Virus record (IMG/VR): IMGVR_UViG_3300044712_000020
Coordinates: 1 to 38,039 of that record
Length of the DNA stretch: 38,039 nucleotides
DNA from: a virus
Direction: 5' to 3' (one strand)
The notes below the pieces were generated by a model. It was given only the letters and a program-made list of their open reading frames with translations. It ran no database searches and was not told the DNA's origin. Below, one piece after another: positions 3,627 through 37,949 of the stretch (position 1 is the first letter of the stretch; each line of letters begins with the position of its first letter). Both the position numbers and the translations under genes were made by a program.

Positions 3627-3832
3627 TGACAATATTAAATAAGATTTTGGACTTGCTTAATTTACAGATTAAGGAAAGTAATGTTAAACTACCAAAAAAG
3701 GTAGTGAAACCCCCGAAAATACAGGATAATAATCAGGCTATTAACAATGGGGTTATCAATGAAAAATCTACTTCTAGTTTGCGAAGCAAAAGTTCAACTG
3801 GGACAAAGCGCAGACGAAGCACAAAATCCTAG
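3626..3832 (+). CDS. Small basic protein overlapping the protease start
   Basis: A 68-residue ORF whose ATG shares the last base of the portal stop codon (TAATG), an arrangement that usually means translational coupling. The product is Lys-rich (PKKVVKPPK, then a KRRRSTKS end) with no recognised domain. Its last 25 or so codons are read in a different frame from the N-terminus of the protease gene, so that part is compositionally constrained by the other gene. It may be a real small head protein, or only a reading frame that delivers ribosomes to the protease start. Function unknown. Confidence 0.45.
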   Translation: MTILNKILDLLNLQIKESNVKLPKKVVKPPKIQDNNQAINNGVINEKSTSSLRSKSSTGTKRRRSTKS

Positions 3833-4547
3833 CGGAAAAATTGAAGCTCGTGCCACTACTTGGGGCGCAAGAGAAGGCGCTGATGGGCGCAAATTTAATT
3901 ATCAGCCAGAGGGCTTTGCTCAATGGGCTGATGAGTTTGCCAATGCTGGCAAGCCAATGCCAATGTTTCTAAATCATAATGATATGGGTATGCCGATTGG
4001 TCAATGGGATGAAGTTTCCTTTGACGAAGAAGGTATGACCGCTAAAGGTCATTTGTTTATGGAAACTGTTGCTGGTTCTGATGTTTATTCTATTTTAAAG
4101 AAATCTCCAAATTTATTTGGCGGTGTTTCTGTAGGCGCTTATGCCGATGAAGCTCAAATGGTTGATGCTGATGGCAATCCGGTAGAAGAAGATACAGAAG
4201 AAGCCTATTTCCAAATTACTAAAGGTGGTTTGCGTGAAATTAGCGTAGTTATGTACCCTAATAATCCAGCCGCTGAAGTTATGAAATTAGAGTGCTTTGA
4301 TGCCGATGGGCATTTAAATCCTCGTGTAGTTGAGGAAGCCTTGCGTGATGCTGGTCTTTCCAAGAAAGGTGCGACCACCGCATCTTCTGTCTTTAAGAAA
4401 ATCCTTGAACAGCGTGATGCAGTTAAGGAAGTTATTAAAGAAGCCCCACAACAGGGTGAGCCTGAAGCGGTGGTAAATGAAGCTGATGCACTTCTCAAAG
4501 CCCTAGAGGAAAGAGAATTGTTGAAAGCATTATCTAAACGCATTTAA
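3759..4547 (+). CDS. Prohead maturation protease (HK97 gp4-like)
   Basis: A serine protease that cleaves the capsid protein's N-terminal scaffold segment during head maturation. Family hallmarks are visible: the FLNHND histidine motif (about H73), the GGVSVGA serine motif (about S124) and the GLREISVVMYPNNPAAEV block (about residues 165-182). It lies directly before the capsid gene, which carries a matching N-terminal delta-like region. I chose the ATG at 3759, with GGGG six bases upstream; an in-frame ATG at 3747 would add four residues. The C-terminal 60-70 residues are charged and helical and could have a scaffold-like role. Confidence 0.88.
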   Translation: MKNLLLVCEAKVQLGQSADEAQNPSGKIEARATTWGAREGADGRKFNYQPEGFAQWADEFANAGKPMPMFLNHNDMGMPIGQWDEVSFDEEGMTAKGHLFMETVAGSDVYSILKKSPNLFGGVSVGAYADEAQMVDADGNPVEEDTEEAYFQITKGGLREISVVMYPNNPAAEVMKLECFDADGHLNPRVVEEALRDAGLSKKGATTASSVFKKILEQRDAVKEVIKEAPQQGEPEAVVNEADALLKALEERELLKALSKRI

Positions 4548-4558
4548 AAGGAATTATC

Positions 4559-5902
4559 ATGTCCGTAGAAAAAATCATTGAAAAGGTTGATGCTATCGAA
4601 CAGGCTAACTTAGCCAAAATCGAAGAAGTAAAAACCGAAACAGTAGCTAAAGTTGAAGAAGCTAAAGCTGAATTTGCAGAAAAAGTAGCCGCTTTGGAAG
4701 CCAAAGTAAGCGAAATGGGCGCAACTCCAGTAATCAAAACTTACAAAACAATTAGCCAAGAAGTTAATCGTTCTGTAAAAGAGCAATTAAAAGATTTTTA
4801 CAAGTCTGCTCGTGGCGTTGAAAAAGAACTCAAGATGTTTGAAGATGCTGGTCAATATGACGCATACATCAAAGAAGCATCTGCATTGACAGGTTCTGGC
4901 GCTGGTGTTGGTGGTCGTACAGCCTACGATCCAGTATTCGTTCCATTGCGTTTGCTAAACCCATTGCGTGGCGTATCTCGTAATGTTGCTACTGATGGTG
5001 CAACTTATCAGTTCCGTGCAAAAGTTGGTAACGCTGGTGCGGCTTGGGGTTACACAATCCAAAATAACGGCTCTGCAACAACAGAGAACACAAACATTTG
5101 GCAATTAACTCTCCAAGACTTGAATGTCCAGTTCCCTATCCGTACAGCGGCTTTGGATGACATTGATGGTTTGGAAGGTAATGTTGTAAGCGATATGTTG
5201 GCAGAGTTCTCACAAGTTGAAGCTCAGTCAATGATCCAAAACAACGATCAAACCGACTCTGGCGTTCCAGGCGTTACCTATGGTGGCACTAACGGCTTGC
5301 GTGGCTTGAATCAGTATCCAGGTTCAGCTTCAGTTTATGCTGGCGGCAAAATCACTACTGCGGCTTTCGGTTCTAGCGGTACTGGCTCAACAAGCGGCTT
5401 AAATTCTATGGCTACTTATGACCAAACCACTACAAACGGCAATGGTTCTGCAAACTTGGTAACTTATGCTGATGTTATTAACTTCATTTACAGCTTGCCA
5501 CAACAATACTGGACTTCTTCTGCTAAGTTCTTGATTAACCCAATCATGCTCTCAGCAATTCGTGGTTTGACAGACGATCAAGGTCGCCCAATTTATGTTG
5601 ATGGTTTGGCTCGTGAAGATGGCATCGTTGGTCAGTTGCTTGGCTTTGATGTTGTTGTAAACAAGTATCTCGATACTCCAACATACGCTGGTGTTGATAA
5701 GGCTAACTTATTCCCAATGTATTTTGGTGATTGGACTCGTGGTCATACAATCGTAGATCGTTTGAATATGGTTATGCGCCGTTACGATCAAACATTGCCT
5801 GGCTTCATCACATTCTATGGTGAGAAGCGTTTGGCAACTTCTACAGTTGATCCATTTGCAATCATTCGTTATCGTTCTACAGGCACAGCTAACGCCGCCT
5901 AA
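4559..5902 (+). CDS. Major capsid protein 1 (HK97 fold, with N-terminal delta/scaffold region)
   Basis: Main head shell subunit. Residues 1 to about 105 are a Lys/Glu/Ala-rich coiled coil (KIEEVKTE, KVEEAKAEFAEKV, ALEAKVSEM) like the HK97 delta domain that acts as internal scaffold. The junction at about K105 leads into EASALTGSGAGVGGR, probably where the upstream protease cuts, leaving a mature part of about 342 residues. The body carries EFSQVEAQSM, GLRGLNQYPGS and the C-terminal PGFITFYGEKRLAT block typical of HK97-fold capsids. Synonymous codon use is regular, consistent with high expression. AAGGAATTATC precedes the ATG. A second homologous gene follows at 5953. Confidence 0.93.
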   Translation: MSVEKIIEKVDAIEQANLAKIEEVKTETVAKVEEAKAEFAEKVAALEAKVSEMGATPVIKTYKTISQEVNRSVKEQLKDFYKSARGVEKELKMFEDAGQYDAYIKEASALTGSGAGVGGRTAYDPVFVPLRLLNPLRGVSRNVATDGATYQFRAKVGNAGAAWGYTIQNNGSATTENTNIWQLTLQDLNVQFPIRTAALDDIDGLEGNVVSDMLAEFSQVEAQSMIQNNDQTDSGVPGVTYGGTNGLRGLNQYPGSASVYAGGKITTAAFGSSGTGSTSGLNSMATYDQTTTNGNGSANLVTYADVINFIYSLPQQYWTSSAKFLINPIMLSAIRGLTDDQGRPIYVDGLAREDGIVGQLLGFDVVVNKYLDTPTYAGVDKANLFPMYFGDWTRGHTIVDRLNMVMRRYDQTLPGFITFYGEKRLATSTVDPFAIIRYRSTGTANAA

Positions 5903-5908
5903 TTGAAT

Positions 5909-5930
5909 GGGGGGAGAAATCCCCCCTTTC
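5909..5930 (+). terminator. GC-rich hairpin between the two capsid genes
   Basis: GGGGGGA (5909-5915), a GAAA tetraloop (5916-5919) and TCCCCCC (5920-5926) form a perfect 7-bp stem seven bases after the first capsid stop, followed by TTTC. The T-run is short, so it may be a leaky terminator or an mRNA 3'-end stabiliser rather than a full stop. No convincing promoter is visible between it and the second capsid gene, so some read-through is needed. Confidence 0.65.
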
Positions 5931-5952
5931 TCAACATATTTGGAATATAAAC

Positions 5953-6978
5953 ATGAGCCTAATTCTCGAATCCATTAAAGAAGCCTTAGTTGAAGGTCAA
6001 TCAACAGTAAGCCTAAAAGAAGCATCAGCACTAACTGGTTCTGGTTCGGGTGTTGGTGGTCGTGTAATTTATGATGATGCTTTTGCATCATTGCGTTATG
6101 CAAACCCTTTCCGCATGGTTGCGAGGGAGATTGTTTGCCCTTCTTCTGACCAAGCCTTTGTAGTAAAAACTGGTAATTCAGAAGATACAACTAACCCTTG
6201 GGGTTATCCAATTAATACGAATGAAGGTTCTCCAAATCAAGCAACATCTTTTTGGCAACTCCCTATTCGTGCAGTAAACGCAGTATTGCCTGTTCGTACT
6301 GCCGTATTGTCTGATGTAAATTATTTAGAAGAAACATTAGTAGCTGATTTGGCTCTTGAATTTAGCCAAGTTGAAGCTCAGTCTATGATGTTTAATAATG
6401 ACCAATCAGGTTCTACAACTACAGCTTATGGCGCAACTTCTGGTCTGCGTGGCTTAAATAGCTACCCTGGCTCTACTGTAGCCGCCGCTTTTGGTACTAG
6501 CGGTTCTGCAATTACTAATGGTTTACATACAGTATTGCAAGTAGCACAAGCCTCTAATACAGCGGTTGTATATGATGACTTAGCTAACTTGATGGCGGCT
6601 CTCCCAGCTCAGTATTTATTCAAAGAAACTACTTGCTGGATGATGCACCCAACTACTATTGGCGCATTGCGTAAACTCAAGGCTTCTTCTTCTGCCAATA
6701 ACTTCTTGGAAGTTGGTGATGATGATGGCGGCGCAGTTCTCTATATCTTTGGTCATCGTGTTATCCCTAACCCATACATGGATGTAACTGGCGCTGGCAA
6801 GTTCCCTGTTTACTTGGCAGACTTTAGCCGTTTTGTAACAATCGCTGATAATGAGCAAATGACATTTAAGCGTTTTGAGCAAACAGCACCAGGATTTATT
6901 TATCTATTTGCTGAAAAGCGTGTAGCTACAACAATTCTTGATGTATTTGCGGGTGTTCGTTTAGTTGGTCCAGCCTAA
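5953..6978 (+). CDS. Major capsid protein 2 (paralogue lacking the long delta domain)
   Basis: A second HK97-fold capsid-type protein of 341 residues. It shares unmistakable blocks with the gene upstream: KEASALTGSGSGVGGR (about residues 22-37), LEFSQVEAQSM, NNDQ, GLRGLNSYPGS and a C-terminal PGFIYLFAEKRVAT. Instead of a roughly 105-residue coiled-coil prosegment it has only about 22 residues before the conserved K/EASALTG junction. It also lacks part of the central insertion after GLRGLN. It is intact, with regular codon use, so it is unlikely to be a decaying duplicate. It probably co-assembles with capsid protein 1, perhaps at vertices as T4 gp24 does; that role is inference. An ordinary ribosome site is not obvious before the ATG. 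Confidence 0.88.
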   Translation: MSLILESIKEALVEGQSTVSLKEASALTGSGSGVGGRVIYDDAFASLRYANPFRMVAREIVCPSSDQAFVVKTGNSEDTTNPWGYPINTNEGSPNQATSFWQLPIRAVNAVLPVRTAVLSDVNYLEETLVADLALEFSQVEAQSMMFNNDQSGSTTTAYGATSGLRGLNSYPGSTVAAAFGTSGSAITNGLHTVLQVAQASNTAVVYDDLANLMAALPAQYLFKETTCWMMHPTTIGALRKLKASSSANNFLEVGDDDGGAVLYIFGHRVIPNPYMDVTGAGKFPVYLADFSRFVTIADNEQMTFKRFEQTAPGFIYLFAEKRVATTILDVFAGVRLVGPA

Positions 6979-6989
6979 TAAGGTAAATC

Positions 6990-7658
6990 ATGCCAGCAGA
7001 TAATTTAGTTGCGGGTCCCTTCCTCGGAAGTACCCGTAACCCTTATAGTTACGAAAAAGTAGAGCAAGTAAGCCGTGATATACAAACTCAATGGCTTACT
7101 CTTGAGGAAATAACTCAACAGCTCAATCTTTTCCAAGATGAAAGCCAAGATACCTATTTAACAGGCTTGGAATTAGCTACTCGCATGGCTATTGAGGATT
7201 TTTTGGGGATGAGCATTTTCCCAATTCAATATAAAGTCTATTATGGCGCTACAAACACTACTGGAACCCAGATGTGCTTGGATTTGCCAGAGGTATCTCA
7301 AGACTTTAGAAATACGGCTGGAACTGTAATTAATTCGGTTGGATATTGGAATGGAAGCACTCCATCAGTATTTACCCTACTATCCCCAACCGATTACTAT
7401 TACGATGCTACAGGCAATAAGGTTGTTTTAAATGCTGGTATGCCAAGCGAAGTAAGCCAAGTAAGAACCAACCCAATCGTAGTTACTTATACGACTAATG
7501 CAAACCCATTAGCTCAATATCCAGTAATTAAACAGGCTGGCTTGTTACTTTTGACCCATTTATACAATAACCGCAGTAACACTAATGCGGCGGTTCTCCA
7601 TGAAATCCCTTTTGGAGTAGCCCAATTATTGCGCCCTTATAAACCTTTGGTGCTATAA
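6990..7658 (+). CDS. Head-tail connector (gp6-like)
   Basis: Likely the adaptor ring that docks beneath the portal after packaging. The 222-residue protein begins its conserved part with QWLTLEEITQQLNL and a helical segment LTGLELATRMAIEDFLGMSIF, the N-terminal helical pattern of gp6-type connector and phiE125 gp8-like proteins. The C-terminal helix KQAGLLLLTHLYNNRS is also typical. It lies after the capsid genes and before two other joining proteins, the standard position. TAAGGTAAATC precedes the ATG. Confidence 0.75.
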   Translation: MPADNLVAGPFLGSTRNPYSYEKVEQVSRDIQTQWLTLEEITQQLNLFQDESQDTYLTGLELATRMAIEDFLGMSIFPIQYKVYYGATNTTGTQMCLDLPEVSQDFRNTAGTVINSVGYWNGSTPSVFTLLSPTDYYYDATGNKVVLNAGMPSEVSQVRTNPIVVTYTTNANPLAQYPVIKQAGLLLLTHLYNNRSNTNAAVLHEIPFGVAQLLRPYKPLVL

Positions 7659-19031: not shown

Positions 19032-21776
<2,745 letters not shown>

Positions 21777-25184: not shown

Positions 25185-26228
25185 ATGAAAATAGCGGTAT
25201 ATGCAATATCAAAAAATGAAGAACAATTTGTAAAGAGATTTTGCGAATCTGCCAAGGATGCTGATTTAATCCTAATAGCAGATACAGGGTCAACTGATAA
25301 TACTGTTGCGGAAGCTAAAAAATATGGGGCTATGGTTCCTTCCATTTGCATTAATCCTTGGCGCTTTGATCTGGCTAGGGATGCCGCTTTAGCCCTCATT
25401 CCTGGCGATTTTGATGTCTGTATTAGCCTAGACTTAGACGAAATTTTAGAAGAAGGCTGGAGAGCTGAAATAGAACGGGTCTGGAAAGAAGATACAACTC
25501 GCCTAAGATATAAATTTGATTGGGGATGTGGAATCTCTTTTTTTTACGAAAAGATCCACCATCGCAAAGGCTACCATTGGCATCATCCGGTCCACGAATA
25601 CCCTAGACCCGACCCAAGAACAAATGAAGTATATGCCCATACAGACAAGCTCTTGGTAAGCCATCACCCAGACCCTACTAAATCTAGGGGTCAGTATTTA
25701 CCCTTATTAGAGATGTCGGTCAAAGAGGACCCTAGATGCCCTCGTAATGCCTTTTATTACGCTAGAGAGCTAACCTTCTATGGTCGCTGGCTAGATGCTG
25801 TTATAGCCCTTAATAAGTACCTAGAAATGCCAGAGGCTAATTGGATTAATGAGCGATGCTATGCCATGCGCCTATTAGGAAAAGCCTATGAATACTTGGG
25901 ACAAGATGGCAGAGAATGGTTTAAAAAAGCCTGTAATGAAGCCCCGAATACTCGTGAGCCTTGGGTAGAGCTGGCAGAAGCTGAATATAAGCGCCAAAAC
26001 TGGTCTGAGTGCTACAAAACAATACAGAAAGCGTTAGAAGTGAAAGATAAAGCATTAGTTTACACAATGGACCCCTCGGTTTGGGGCGCAAAACCACATG
26101 ACTTTTTGGCTATTTCCGCTTATCATTTGGGCTTAAAGGATGATGCCATTAAGCATGGTAAAATCGCCTTAGAGTTTGAACCAGATAATACAAGATTGAT
26201 AAACAATTTAAACTATTATCTGGAGTAG
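25185..26228 (+). CDS. Family 2 glycosyltransferase with TPR-like C-terminus
   Basis: A GT-A fold enzyme that should transfer a sugar from a nucleotide sugar. It shows the GT2 start KIAVYAISKNEEQFVKRF, DTGSTDNT (about residues 33-40) and the metal-binding DLDE (about 83-86). The acceptor-binding half has HHRKGYHWHHPVHEYPRP, and residues beyond about 190 form helical pairs resembling TPRs (NAFYYARELTFYGRWLDAVIALNKYLE, EPWVELAEAEYKRQNWSECYKTI). TPR fusions are known in protein O-glycosyltransferases. AGGATAAGAC precedes the ATG. Between the fibre genes and lysis, it may modify virion fibres or the host surface. Confidence 0.85.
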   Translation: MKIAVYAISKNEEQFVKRFCESAKDADLILIADTGSTDNTVAEAKKYGAMVPSICINPWRFDLARDAALALIPGDFDVCISLDLDEILEEGWRAEIERVWKEDTTRLRYKFDWGCGISFFYEKIHHRKGYHWHHPVHEYPRPDPRTNEVYAHTDKLLVSHHPDPTKSRGQYLPLLEMSVKEDPRCPRNAFYYARELTFYGRWLDAVIALNKYLEMPEANWINERCYAMRLLGKAYEYLGQDGREWFKKACNEAPNTREPWVELAEAEYKRQNWSECYKTIQKALEVKDKALVYTMDPSVWGAKPHDFLAISAYHLGLKDDAIKHGKIALEFEPDNTRLINNLNYYLE

Positions 26229-32955: not shown

Positions 32956-33102
32956 ATGAATAAAGATGAATTTCTTGATTTTCTTGAAAAACAATTAATT
33001 GAATTATGTGATTACATAAATCATTTAGAAAAAGAATGTGCCGCTATGCGTGAGCAACTTAATTACCTAGAAACTCAGATATATGGGGGATCAACAAAGT
33101 GA
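32956..33102 (+). CDS. Small coiled-coil protein, 48 residues
   Basis: A short ORF, MNKDEFLDFLEKQLIELCDY, then an alpha-helical heptad-like segment (LEKECAAMREQLNYLETQ). It ends in a TGA overlapped by the GTG of the next gene (GTGA), and starts two bases after the previous stop. Its helical heptads suggest a small dimer. No family known. Confidence 0.6.
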   Translation: MNKDEFLDFLEKQLIELCDYINHLEKECAAMREQLNYLETQIYGGSTK

Positions 33103-33719
33103 AAGTATTGATTGCTTGCGAATTTAGCGGAACAGTCAGAGATGCCTTTATAAAGGCTGGGCATAATGCAATGTCATGTGATTTAGTTCCTACTGACATT
33201 CCTGGTCCTCATTATCAGGGATCGGTATTAGATATTTTAGAAGATGGATGGGATTTAATGATTGCACATCCACCTTGCACATATTTGACTGTTACCGGAA
33301 ATAAATGGTTCAAGCCTGAATATAAAGATAGATTTCCAACTAGACATCAAGACAGAGAAGATGCTATTGATTTTTTCTTAAAACTAGCAAATGCAAATAT
33401 TGAAAAAATAGCTTTAGAAAATCCAATAGGAATTTTATCTACTAGATATAAAAAACCTACACAAATCATACAGCCTTGGCAATTTGGTTATCCAGCAACA
33501 AAAGCAACTTGCTTATGGTTAAAAAATTTACCTCCTTTAATCCCAACTAATATCGTAAATAAAGGAGAAGTAGTGGTTGCAAAAAGCGGCAAAACAATGA
33601 GTAGATGGTATTACGATACTGGTATGCTTCCATTAAAAAATGGCGCTAGAGCAAAAGCTAGAAATAAAACATTCCAAGGTATTGCCGATGCTATGGCAGA
33701 CCAATGGGGAAAGCTATGA
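33099..33719 (+). CDS. C5-cytosine-methyltransferase-like protein
   Basis: A 206-residue SAM-dependent methyltransferase-type protein. It shows a SAM-binding start KVLIACEFSGTVRDAFIKAG, the catalytic PPC (about residues 58-60, DLMIAHPPCTYLT) and ENPIG (about 107-111), matching C5 motifs I, IV and VI. It is much shorter than normal C5 enzymes (300 or more residues) and no clear target-recognition domain is present, so it could lack specificity or modify free nucleotides. It starts with GTG, coupled to the small gene before it, after GGGGGATC. Confidence 0.75.
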   Translation: MKVLIACEFSGTVRDAFIKAGHNAMSCDLVPTDIPGPHYQGSVLDILEDGWDLMIAHPPCTYLTVTGNKWFKPEYKDRFPTRHQDREDAIDFFLKLANANIEKIALENPIGILSTRYKKPTQIIQPWQFGYPATKATCLWLKNLPPLIPTNIVNKGEVVVAKSGKTMSRWYYDTGMLPLKNGARAKARNKTFQGIADAMADQWGKL

Positions 33720-36944: not shown

Positions 36945-37436
36945 ATGCCTATCGTTAAAAAACCTGATGGATGGTACTGGGGAAGTAAGGGACCATTCAC
37001 TACTAAGCAAAAAGCCGTTCAAGTTGGGCAAGCCGCCCATGCTTCAGGCTTCAAAGAGGAATTAGCTATGAATCAATCTATTGTCGGTGAGTTTGTAGGC
37101 ACATTACTACATTCAGCCACCATTGCTCACTTTAAGCACCTTCAGACTACAAGCTATGCCCAGCACAAAGCACTCCAGAAATACTATGAGGAAATCGTAG
37201 ATGCGGCAGATACGATAGCCGAGGCGCTACAGGGCTGTGAAGGCGAGATTATCAATGCTTACCCTATGATGTTTGGTAATACAGAAGCTAGTCCATTGGA
37301 CTACTTAACCTCTATTCGTGAGTATGTAATCGCCAATCGTGAAGCCATCTCTGAATACAGCAATATCCAGAATGAGATAGATGCAGTAATGACCCTATTG
37401 GACAGCACCATATACAAGCTGACCTTCCTAAAGTAA
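36945..37436 (+). CDS. Dps/ferritin-like protein with N-terminal extension
   Basis: A 163-residue protein. Residues about 45-163 form a four-helix bundle: SIVGEFVGTLLHSATIAHFK, then HLQTTSYAQHKALQKYYEEI, VDAADTIAEALQG, and ending helices, which resemble Dps or ferritin-like DUF5856-type phage proteins; an HF..L...S...H.....YYEE...D..AE pattern is visible. The first 40 residues (PDGWYWGSKGPFTTKQKAVQ) are a separate short module, seen in small phage proteins. Could store iron or protect DNA, or be a virion part. Metal ligands are only partly matched. Confidence 0.7.
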   Translation: MPIVKKPDGWYWGSKGPFTTKQKAVQVGQAAHASGFKEELAMNQSIVGEFVGTLLHSATIAHFKHLQTTSYAQHKALQKYYEEIVDAADTIAEALQGCEGEIINAYPMMFGNTEASPLDYLTSIREYVIANREAISEYSNIQNEIDAVMTLLDSTIYKLTFLK

Positions 37437-37493: not shown

Positions 37494-37949
37494 ATGCCAA
37501 CAATACCTAAGTTCACTAAGTGCCTAACCCTAGGATGTAGGGAAGAACGCAGTAAGTTCAATGCTTACTGTATGAGTCATGGTGGTAGAGATACATACGA
37601 CCATAAGAGATACAACAGCTCAGAGAAGCGTAAGGCTGGGCTAGATAAATACACATCGAGTCAATGGCGTAAGCTCAGACAGATCCAGCTAAGTAAACAT
37701 CCATTATGTGCCGCCTGTCTATCTGAGGGTAGGATCACATCAGCATTGCACATAGACCATCTATTCCCCTGGTCCCAACTAGGAGAGGATGCGTTTTATA
37801 TCAATGTGTTCCAATCCCTATGCCATTCGTGCCACAGTATTAAGACTACGCTAGAGCAACGGGATATATACAGGCTATACGGGATACCTACAAGGGACTA
37901 CAAGCTGAGTGATTACATGAGTGTCATGCACCTACATGAGAAGATTTAA
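37494..37949 (+). CDS. HNH endonuclease next to terS
   Basis: A 151-residue HNH nuclease. It shows zinc Cys pairs (CAAC, CHSC) and the core ITSALHIDHLFPWSQLGEDA (DH at about 88-89) followed by FQSLCHSCHSIKT. HNH proteins adjacent to the terminase take part in cos cleavage and packaging in HK97-like phages. If the window closes into a circle, this gene lies some 155 bases ahead of terS. The N-terminal Cys/His-rich part (CLTLGCREERSKFNAYCMSH) may be an extra zinc finger. Confidence 0.87.
   Translation: MPTIPKFTKCLTLGCREERSKFNAYCMSHGGRDTYDHKRYNSSEKRKAGLDKYTSSQWRKLRQIQLSKHPLCAACLSEGRITSALHIDHLFPWSQLGEDAFYINVFQSLCHSCHSIKTTLEQRDIYRLYGIPTRDYKLSDYMSVMHLHEKI

Follow-up and report, generated by a model that had tools for sequence, protein, structure and literature searches.

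A tandem pair of HK97-fold capsid genes in a lineage of small aquatic viruses, and a candidate penton protein that lacks the delta scaffold domain

Two tandem capsid genes with unequal N-terminal regions

The DNA analysed here, referred to as the window, is a virus record of 38,039 bases (IMGVR_UViG_3300044712_000020) in which the genes follow the order TerS, TerL, portal, prohead protease, MCP1, MCP2, connector and tail genes. MCP1 (4559-5902, plus strand; 447 aa) is the presumed hexon protein and MCP2 (5953-6978, plus strand; 341 aa) the presumed minor penton protein. Both were recognized by the Pfam Phage_capsid profile PF05065, with 107.3 bits (E 1.2e-30) and 74.8 bits (E 1e-20) respectively against a curated cut-off of 24.2, and both matched the PHROG category 'major head protein'. 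BLASTP aligned the two proteins over 344 aa with 40% identity (E 4e-71), and a profile-profile comparison placed their relationship well past chance (E 7e-84). Pfam, PHROG and BLASTP thus agree with a preliminary description of this DNA, which had read two intact HK97-fold capsid genes in tandem; both reading frames are whole, and the sequence blocks that it listed as common to the pair are present in both proteins. The possibility that MCP2 is a truncated or frameshifted remnant was ruled out, since its reading frame is intact and evolves under purifying selection. Upstream of the pair lies the gene of a Peptidase_S78 prohead protease (3747-4547, plus strand; PF04586, 38.7 bits; phrog_3244, head maturation protease, 1.7e-16) with 27.7% identity to HK97 gp4 (E 5e-7), which is the enzyme expected to trim MCP1 and MCP2. 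Downstream lies a head-tail connector gene (6990-7658, plus strand; PF05135; phrog_442, head-tail adaptor), which in ordinary HK97-like phages comes directly after a single MCP gene. As read from the letters, GGAA at 5942-5945 (plus strand), 7 nt 5′ of the ATG, is the probable ribosome-binding site of MCP2.

Elsewhere in the window, 19032-21776 encodes a probable tail fibre of 914 aa in which collagen-like repeats are numerous (PF01391, 4.6e-82), and 25185-26228 a glycosyltransferase with TPR repeats (phrog_13126, 3.8e-102) that adjoins fibre-assembly genes. Further genes encode a DNA methyltransferase (33099-33719; phrog_757), a DUF5856 protein that PHROG names 'starvation-inducible transcriptional regulator' (36945-37436; 3.6e-27) and an HNH endonuclease (37494-37949; phrog_144).

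Homology between the paralogues starts at the motif KEASALTGSG, at about residue 105 of MCP1 and residue 22 of MCP2. Ahead of it, MCP1 has a delta-like helical prodomain of about 104 residues (4559-4870, plus strand), whereas MCP2 has a leader of 22 residues before the shared junction (5953-6018, plus strand). AF2 predicted helices at residues 3-52, 65-82, 85-93 and 97-111 of MCP1, with low confidence, and a single short N-terminal helix, 2-14, in MCP2, so that alignment and predicted helices uphold the difference in length noticed earlier. A delta region hidden in MCP2 by a misread start codon was ruled out, because the intergenic gap is 50 nt and is occupied by a hairpin. Among the relatives, 102-123 residues precede the GSG motif in nearly all MCP1 proteins and 28-47 in MCP2 proteins (130 in a sub-clade with an extra N-terminal domain), and about 77 N-terminal columns of an alignment of 57 non-redundant genomes are exclusive to MCP1. 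As for the elements of a delta-domain system, MCP1 has the helical prodomain, a gp4-type protease gene lies just upstream, and MCP2 is without the delta domain. The shared junction motif suggests that both paralogues may be cut at one and the same site. Co-variation of the motif was discarded as proof of a single protease, being weak evidence: 2 of 5000 shuffles reach it and the genomes are related. The motif is altered in L003, L084 and L087: in both paralogues of phage P19250A (EQAGLQ / EAAGLQ), and mainly in MCP1 in L084 and L087.

Structure prediction, which the preliminary description had put forward as a check, gave matches to HK97-fold capsids for both proteins; the models were built on shallow alignments and serve as fold support only (pLDDT 52 for MCP1 and a moderate 68 for MCP2). 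The MCP2 model had 349 PDB matches at E<=0.001, the best being the RcGTA capsid (E 1.2e-18), and the poor MCP1 model matched the same capsid with E 3e-10. By sequence and model comparison the RcGTA capsid protein Rcc01687 is the closest solved relative, and it is the best match of MCP1 on both counts. Alignment to the HK97 gp5 profile was too weak for placing the cross-link residues. In RcGTA one protein makes hexamers and pentamers (PMC7296036), and therefore the fold does not require a penton paralogue.

In one sub-clade (L006-L016 and L018; L007:6082-6390) MCP2 bears an extra N-terminal domain of about 103 residues (phrog_2859, function unknown) at the position of the prodomain that it lacks. 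In Synechococcus phage S-CBS3 and Roseobacter phage CRP-406 this domain stands at the head of large proteins that are annotated as major capsid proteins and, judging by length and gene order, probably include the protease as well. Since the extra residues belong to this unrelated domain, the long MCP2 proteins (L006-L018) were ruled out as carriers of the ancestral delta domain. On MCP2, phrog_2859 would suit an internal, possibly removable part of the procapsid, which indirectly supports a place for MCP2 in the shell.

Distribution and ancestry of the pair

A search of virus contigs with MCP2 returned 275 relatives. Because such a query could find only genomes that bear MCP2, three MCP1 queries were used to search in the opposite direction. 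MCP1 lay directly upstream at 105 of the 105 MCP2-found loci with room on both sides, and MCP2 was present at 201/201 MCP1-found loci with room to see it, the contigs in these counts not being independent samples; the reverse result speaks against a bias of the MCP2 query as the source of the universal pairing. MCP2 was found within 400 nt in 200 of the 212 MCP1-found loci and after an inserted reading frame in one (L190); at the other 11 the contig ends too early or too little of MCP1 is present. No genome of the lineage lacking MCP2 was seen among the loci found through either protein. Of thirteen records searched with the Phage_capsid profile, all but one showed two copies; the exception, a 12.6-kb record, had a single listed match, though its MCP2 was known from the MCP2 search. 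The homology search for tandem pairs proposed at the outset therefore revealed a pair fixed in a large aquatic lineage, whose carriers are a common group of small (about 38-kb) freshwater bacterial viruses. Some lineage contigs (L118-L121) have been binned into MAGs of unrelated bacteria and archaea, Nitrosotalea among them, and are probably mis-binned virus contigs; such bins are doubtful as hosts and were left out of host assignment. An apparent frameshift, either an assembly error or real, divides MCP1 in another contig (L039:2-1052).

The lineage includes a cultured member. Methylophilaceae phage P19250A (KX815270), grown on host strain IMCC19250, has the same gene order and the tandem pair, and its proteins are 69% (MCP1) and 55% (MCP2) identical to those of the window. 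Its MCP2 is annotated as 'hypothetical protein', and the pair goes unmentioned in those parts of the literature on P19250A that were consulted. Among the open-licence papers searched, the tandem pair is undescribed. The earlier statement that no described HK97-like siphovirus has this arrangement must accordingly be narrowed: a cultured phage carries the pair, though it went unrecognized there, and a satellite, SaPIbov5, encodes a capsid homologue, Ccm, that forms pentamers in an HK97-type shell (PMC8569155).

In a tree of 57 genomes and six outgroup capsid proteins, MCP1 formed one clade (SH-aLRT 94) and MCP2 another (SH-aLRT 96), and the two were jointly split from the outgroups with support of 98. 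The simplest reading of this topology is one old duplication that would predate the diversification of the lineage. MCP2 may instead have come in from an extinct sister lineage, a route for which there is room because the outgroups are distant. No close relative with a single MCP was found among the relatives searched, and the duplication is therefore not rootable on a near outgroup. Both genes evolve under similarly strong purifying selection, with median dN/dS values of 0.135 and 0.133. Compared with MCP1, MCP2 has lost the prodomain, has a shorter C-terminus and shows three internal shortenings (at MCP1 residues 258-265, 291-296 and 377-381). Sixteen positions are fixed to different residues in the two proteins and 66 are fixed alike in both. 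Duplication followed by specialization, as first suggested for this pair, is well supported by the reciprocally monophyletic clades, the universal co-occurrence, the purifying selection and the differing expression signatures. That MCP2 is a redundant duplicate with no special role appears highly improbable: the paralogues are still 40% identical across the whole capsid domain, but the ancient duplication has been retained by every genome sampled, and the fixed residues and dose signals that set the two apart, together with the loss of a domain, argue otherwise.

An intergenic hairpin, codon usage and the dose of MCP2

The spacer between the two genes contains a terminator-like hairpin (5905-5931, plus strand), GGGGGGA-GAAA-TCCCCCC, with stem arms at 5909-5915 and 5920-5926, outer GAA/TTC pairs and a following TTTCT. 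Its T-run is short, and for that reason a consensus terminator scanner passed over it. Hairpins above threshold were detected in 70 of 72 distinct MCP1-MCP2 spacers, as against 1 of 75 control flanks immediately upstream of MCP1 and 2 of 72 immediately downstream of MCP2. Pairing was kept across 43 distinct stem sequences in the 72-spacer set, and the 9 bases that follow contain a median of 5 T. In a second set, found through MCP1, 112 of 117 spacers had the hairpin. By eye, three of the five non-scoring spacers (L277, L190 and L319) still have a hairpin after MCP1; the L250 spacer holds an inserted HNH-like reading frame, and the L200 spacer, a start-codon or overlap case, is without a hairpin. 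Endonuclease reading frames were seen between MCP1 and MCP2 in L190 (about 5380-5920; GIY-YIG-like, PHROG homing endonuclease, 7.7e-15) and L250 (about 2097-2420; HNH-like, HNH, 6.4e-12).

Of the six single-MCP phages that were compared, five, HK97 among them, likewise had a hairpin after the MCP gene. The hairpin would therefore indicate a lower dose downstream and not a penton role, and the telling point is that MCP2 lies beyond it.

Codon usage was compared through the share of C-ending codons among two-choice codons, a proxy, and no more than that, for high expression. In the window this share was 0.487 for MCP1 and 0.263 for MCP2, other genes checked ranging from 0.09 to 0.40. MCP1 exceeded MCP2 in 55 of 57 genomes, and in 108/113 of a second set. 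As in phage T4, hairpin and codon bias agree as proxies in pointing to lower expression of MCP2, and they disfavour a mosaic shell with equal doses of the two proteins.

A low expression signature could also belong to a protein outside the virion, such as a decoy or regulator acting against capsid-sensing defence or capsid-stealing satellites, and the incorporation of MCP2 into virions is itself something we infer. We consider this very unlikely, since MCP2 is under purifying selection as strong as that on MCP1, shares the 66 conserved positions, lies in the head operon and is universally present. The N-terminal domain added in one clade, which elsewhere heads long capsid proteins, also suits an internal procapsid position.

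Parallels with known two-protein shells and a proposed division of labour

T4 served as a calibration, because its gp23 and gp24 are capsid paralogues of known position. Gene 23 is followed by AGGGAACCTTCGGGTTCCCTTTTTT, the endonuclease gene segD and gene 24; AGGGAACCTTCGGGTTCCCTTTTTT is a hairpin with a T-run, and the codon measure gave 0.526 for gene 23 and 0.368 for gene 24. In T4, 65 N-terminal residues are removed from gp23, the hexamer protein, and 10 from gp24, the vertex protein, which probably derives from gp23 by duplication (PMC9958956). The pair described here resembles this system in its adjacent HK97-fold paralogues with the major one first, the hairpin after the first gene, the weaker codon bias of the second, the long versus short N-terminal prodomain, and the endonuclease gene that can occupy the spacer (segD in T4; L190 and L250 here). 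T4, a myovirus of 169 kb, has separate scaffold proteins and a prolate head, whereas this lineage has a 38-kb siphovirus-type genome and an HK97-like delta domain as scaffold. The hit lists contained no T4-type match that would point to descent from the gp24 family, the matches being HK97/RcGTA-type capsids; without close sequence kinship in those lists, the likeness to the T4 pair is likely convergence.

A second parallel is SaPIbov5 Ccm, an HK97-type capsid homologue that cryo-EM places in the pentamers of the procapsid, the phi12 capsid protein making the hexamers, and whose delta domain is shorter (87 versus 128 residues; PMC8569155). The shared elements are an HK97-type shell, a delta-domain scaffold and a second homologue with a shorter N-terminal region. 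Ccm is satellite-encoded, changes the capsid shape of its helper and retains an 87-residue delta domain, whereas the phage encodes MCP2 in a fixed gene of its own, and the MCP2 leader is about 22 residues long.

These comparisons bear on where MCP2 would act. It could be a low-copy shell subunit placed elsewhere, at random in hexons and pentons or as a ring around the portal; a low dose suits any minor shell role, and two-component HK97-fold shells of variable composition do exist, as in the family 2B encapsulin of Streptomyces lydicus, in which two shell proteins co-assemble (PMC12407261). We regard this placement as unlikely: the known minor paralogues in protease-processed phage shells, T4 gp24 and SaPIbov5 Ccm, form pentamers, and one fixed environment is suggested both by residues conserved in a paralogue-specific way and by four deletions that recur consistently in MCP2. 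The S. lydicus encapsulin differs from the present lineage in being non-phage and in its mixed, irregular shells; encapsulins are not known to have a delta domain or a protease. Somewhat less likely again is that MCP2 serves mainly as a Ccm-like switch of capsid size or shape, or as an activator of the protease at the vertices, and not as a structural vertex protein. Ccm pentamers do turn the prolate phi12 capsid isometric (PMC8569155), and attachment of gp24 is thought to set off the T4 protease (PMC9958956). MCP2, however, is universal and the phage's own, no alternative capsid form is known, and either function may overlap with a penton role.

We favour as probable a division in which MCP1 would build the hexons and bring the delta scaffold and MCP2 would be a low-copy penton protein, a role that we infer from the genomic evidence. 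An equal mosaic would agree less well with the low dose of MCP2 and with the T4 parallel. In the proposed mechanism, the old duplication would have split the labour of the capsid between two virion proteins. Abundant MCP1, with its delta scaffold as an N-terminal prodomain, would nucleate assembly and build hexons around the portal. MCP2 would be scarce because the hairpin ends or protects most transcripts after MCP1 and, without the delta coiled coil, would make up the pentamers at eleven vertices. Cleavage by the gp4-like protease at the shared junction would remove the prodomain of MCP1 and perhaps also the short leader of MCP2. The HK97 shell has T=7; if the same holds here, a particle would contain 360 copies of MCP1 and 55 of MCP2, or 6.5 to 1. 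On balance we lean towards the broader view that a delta-domain lineage of about 38 kb evolved a scaffold-less penton protein independently of T4, with a conserved hairpin setting its dose and only the hexons bringing scaffold.

The textbook example of a single capsid protein serving for both hexons and pentons is the HK97-type phage. If the proposed division of labour is true, these viruses would provide a natural, genetically separable system for studying how pentamers are placed and whether they need delta, and the T4 solution would have arisen without a large or prolate head. In a cultured relative MCP2 is concealed under the label 'hypothetical protein', and the gene is frequent in aquatic metagenomes; annotation and the prediction of capsid size from metagenomes are therefore affected.
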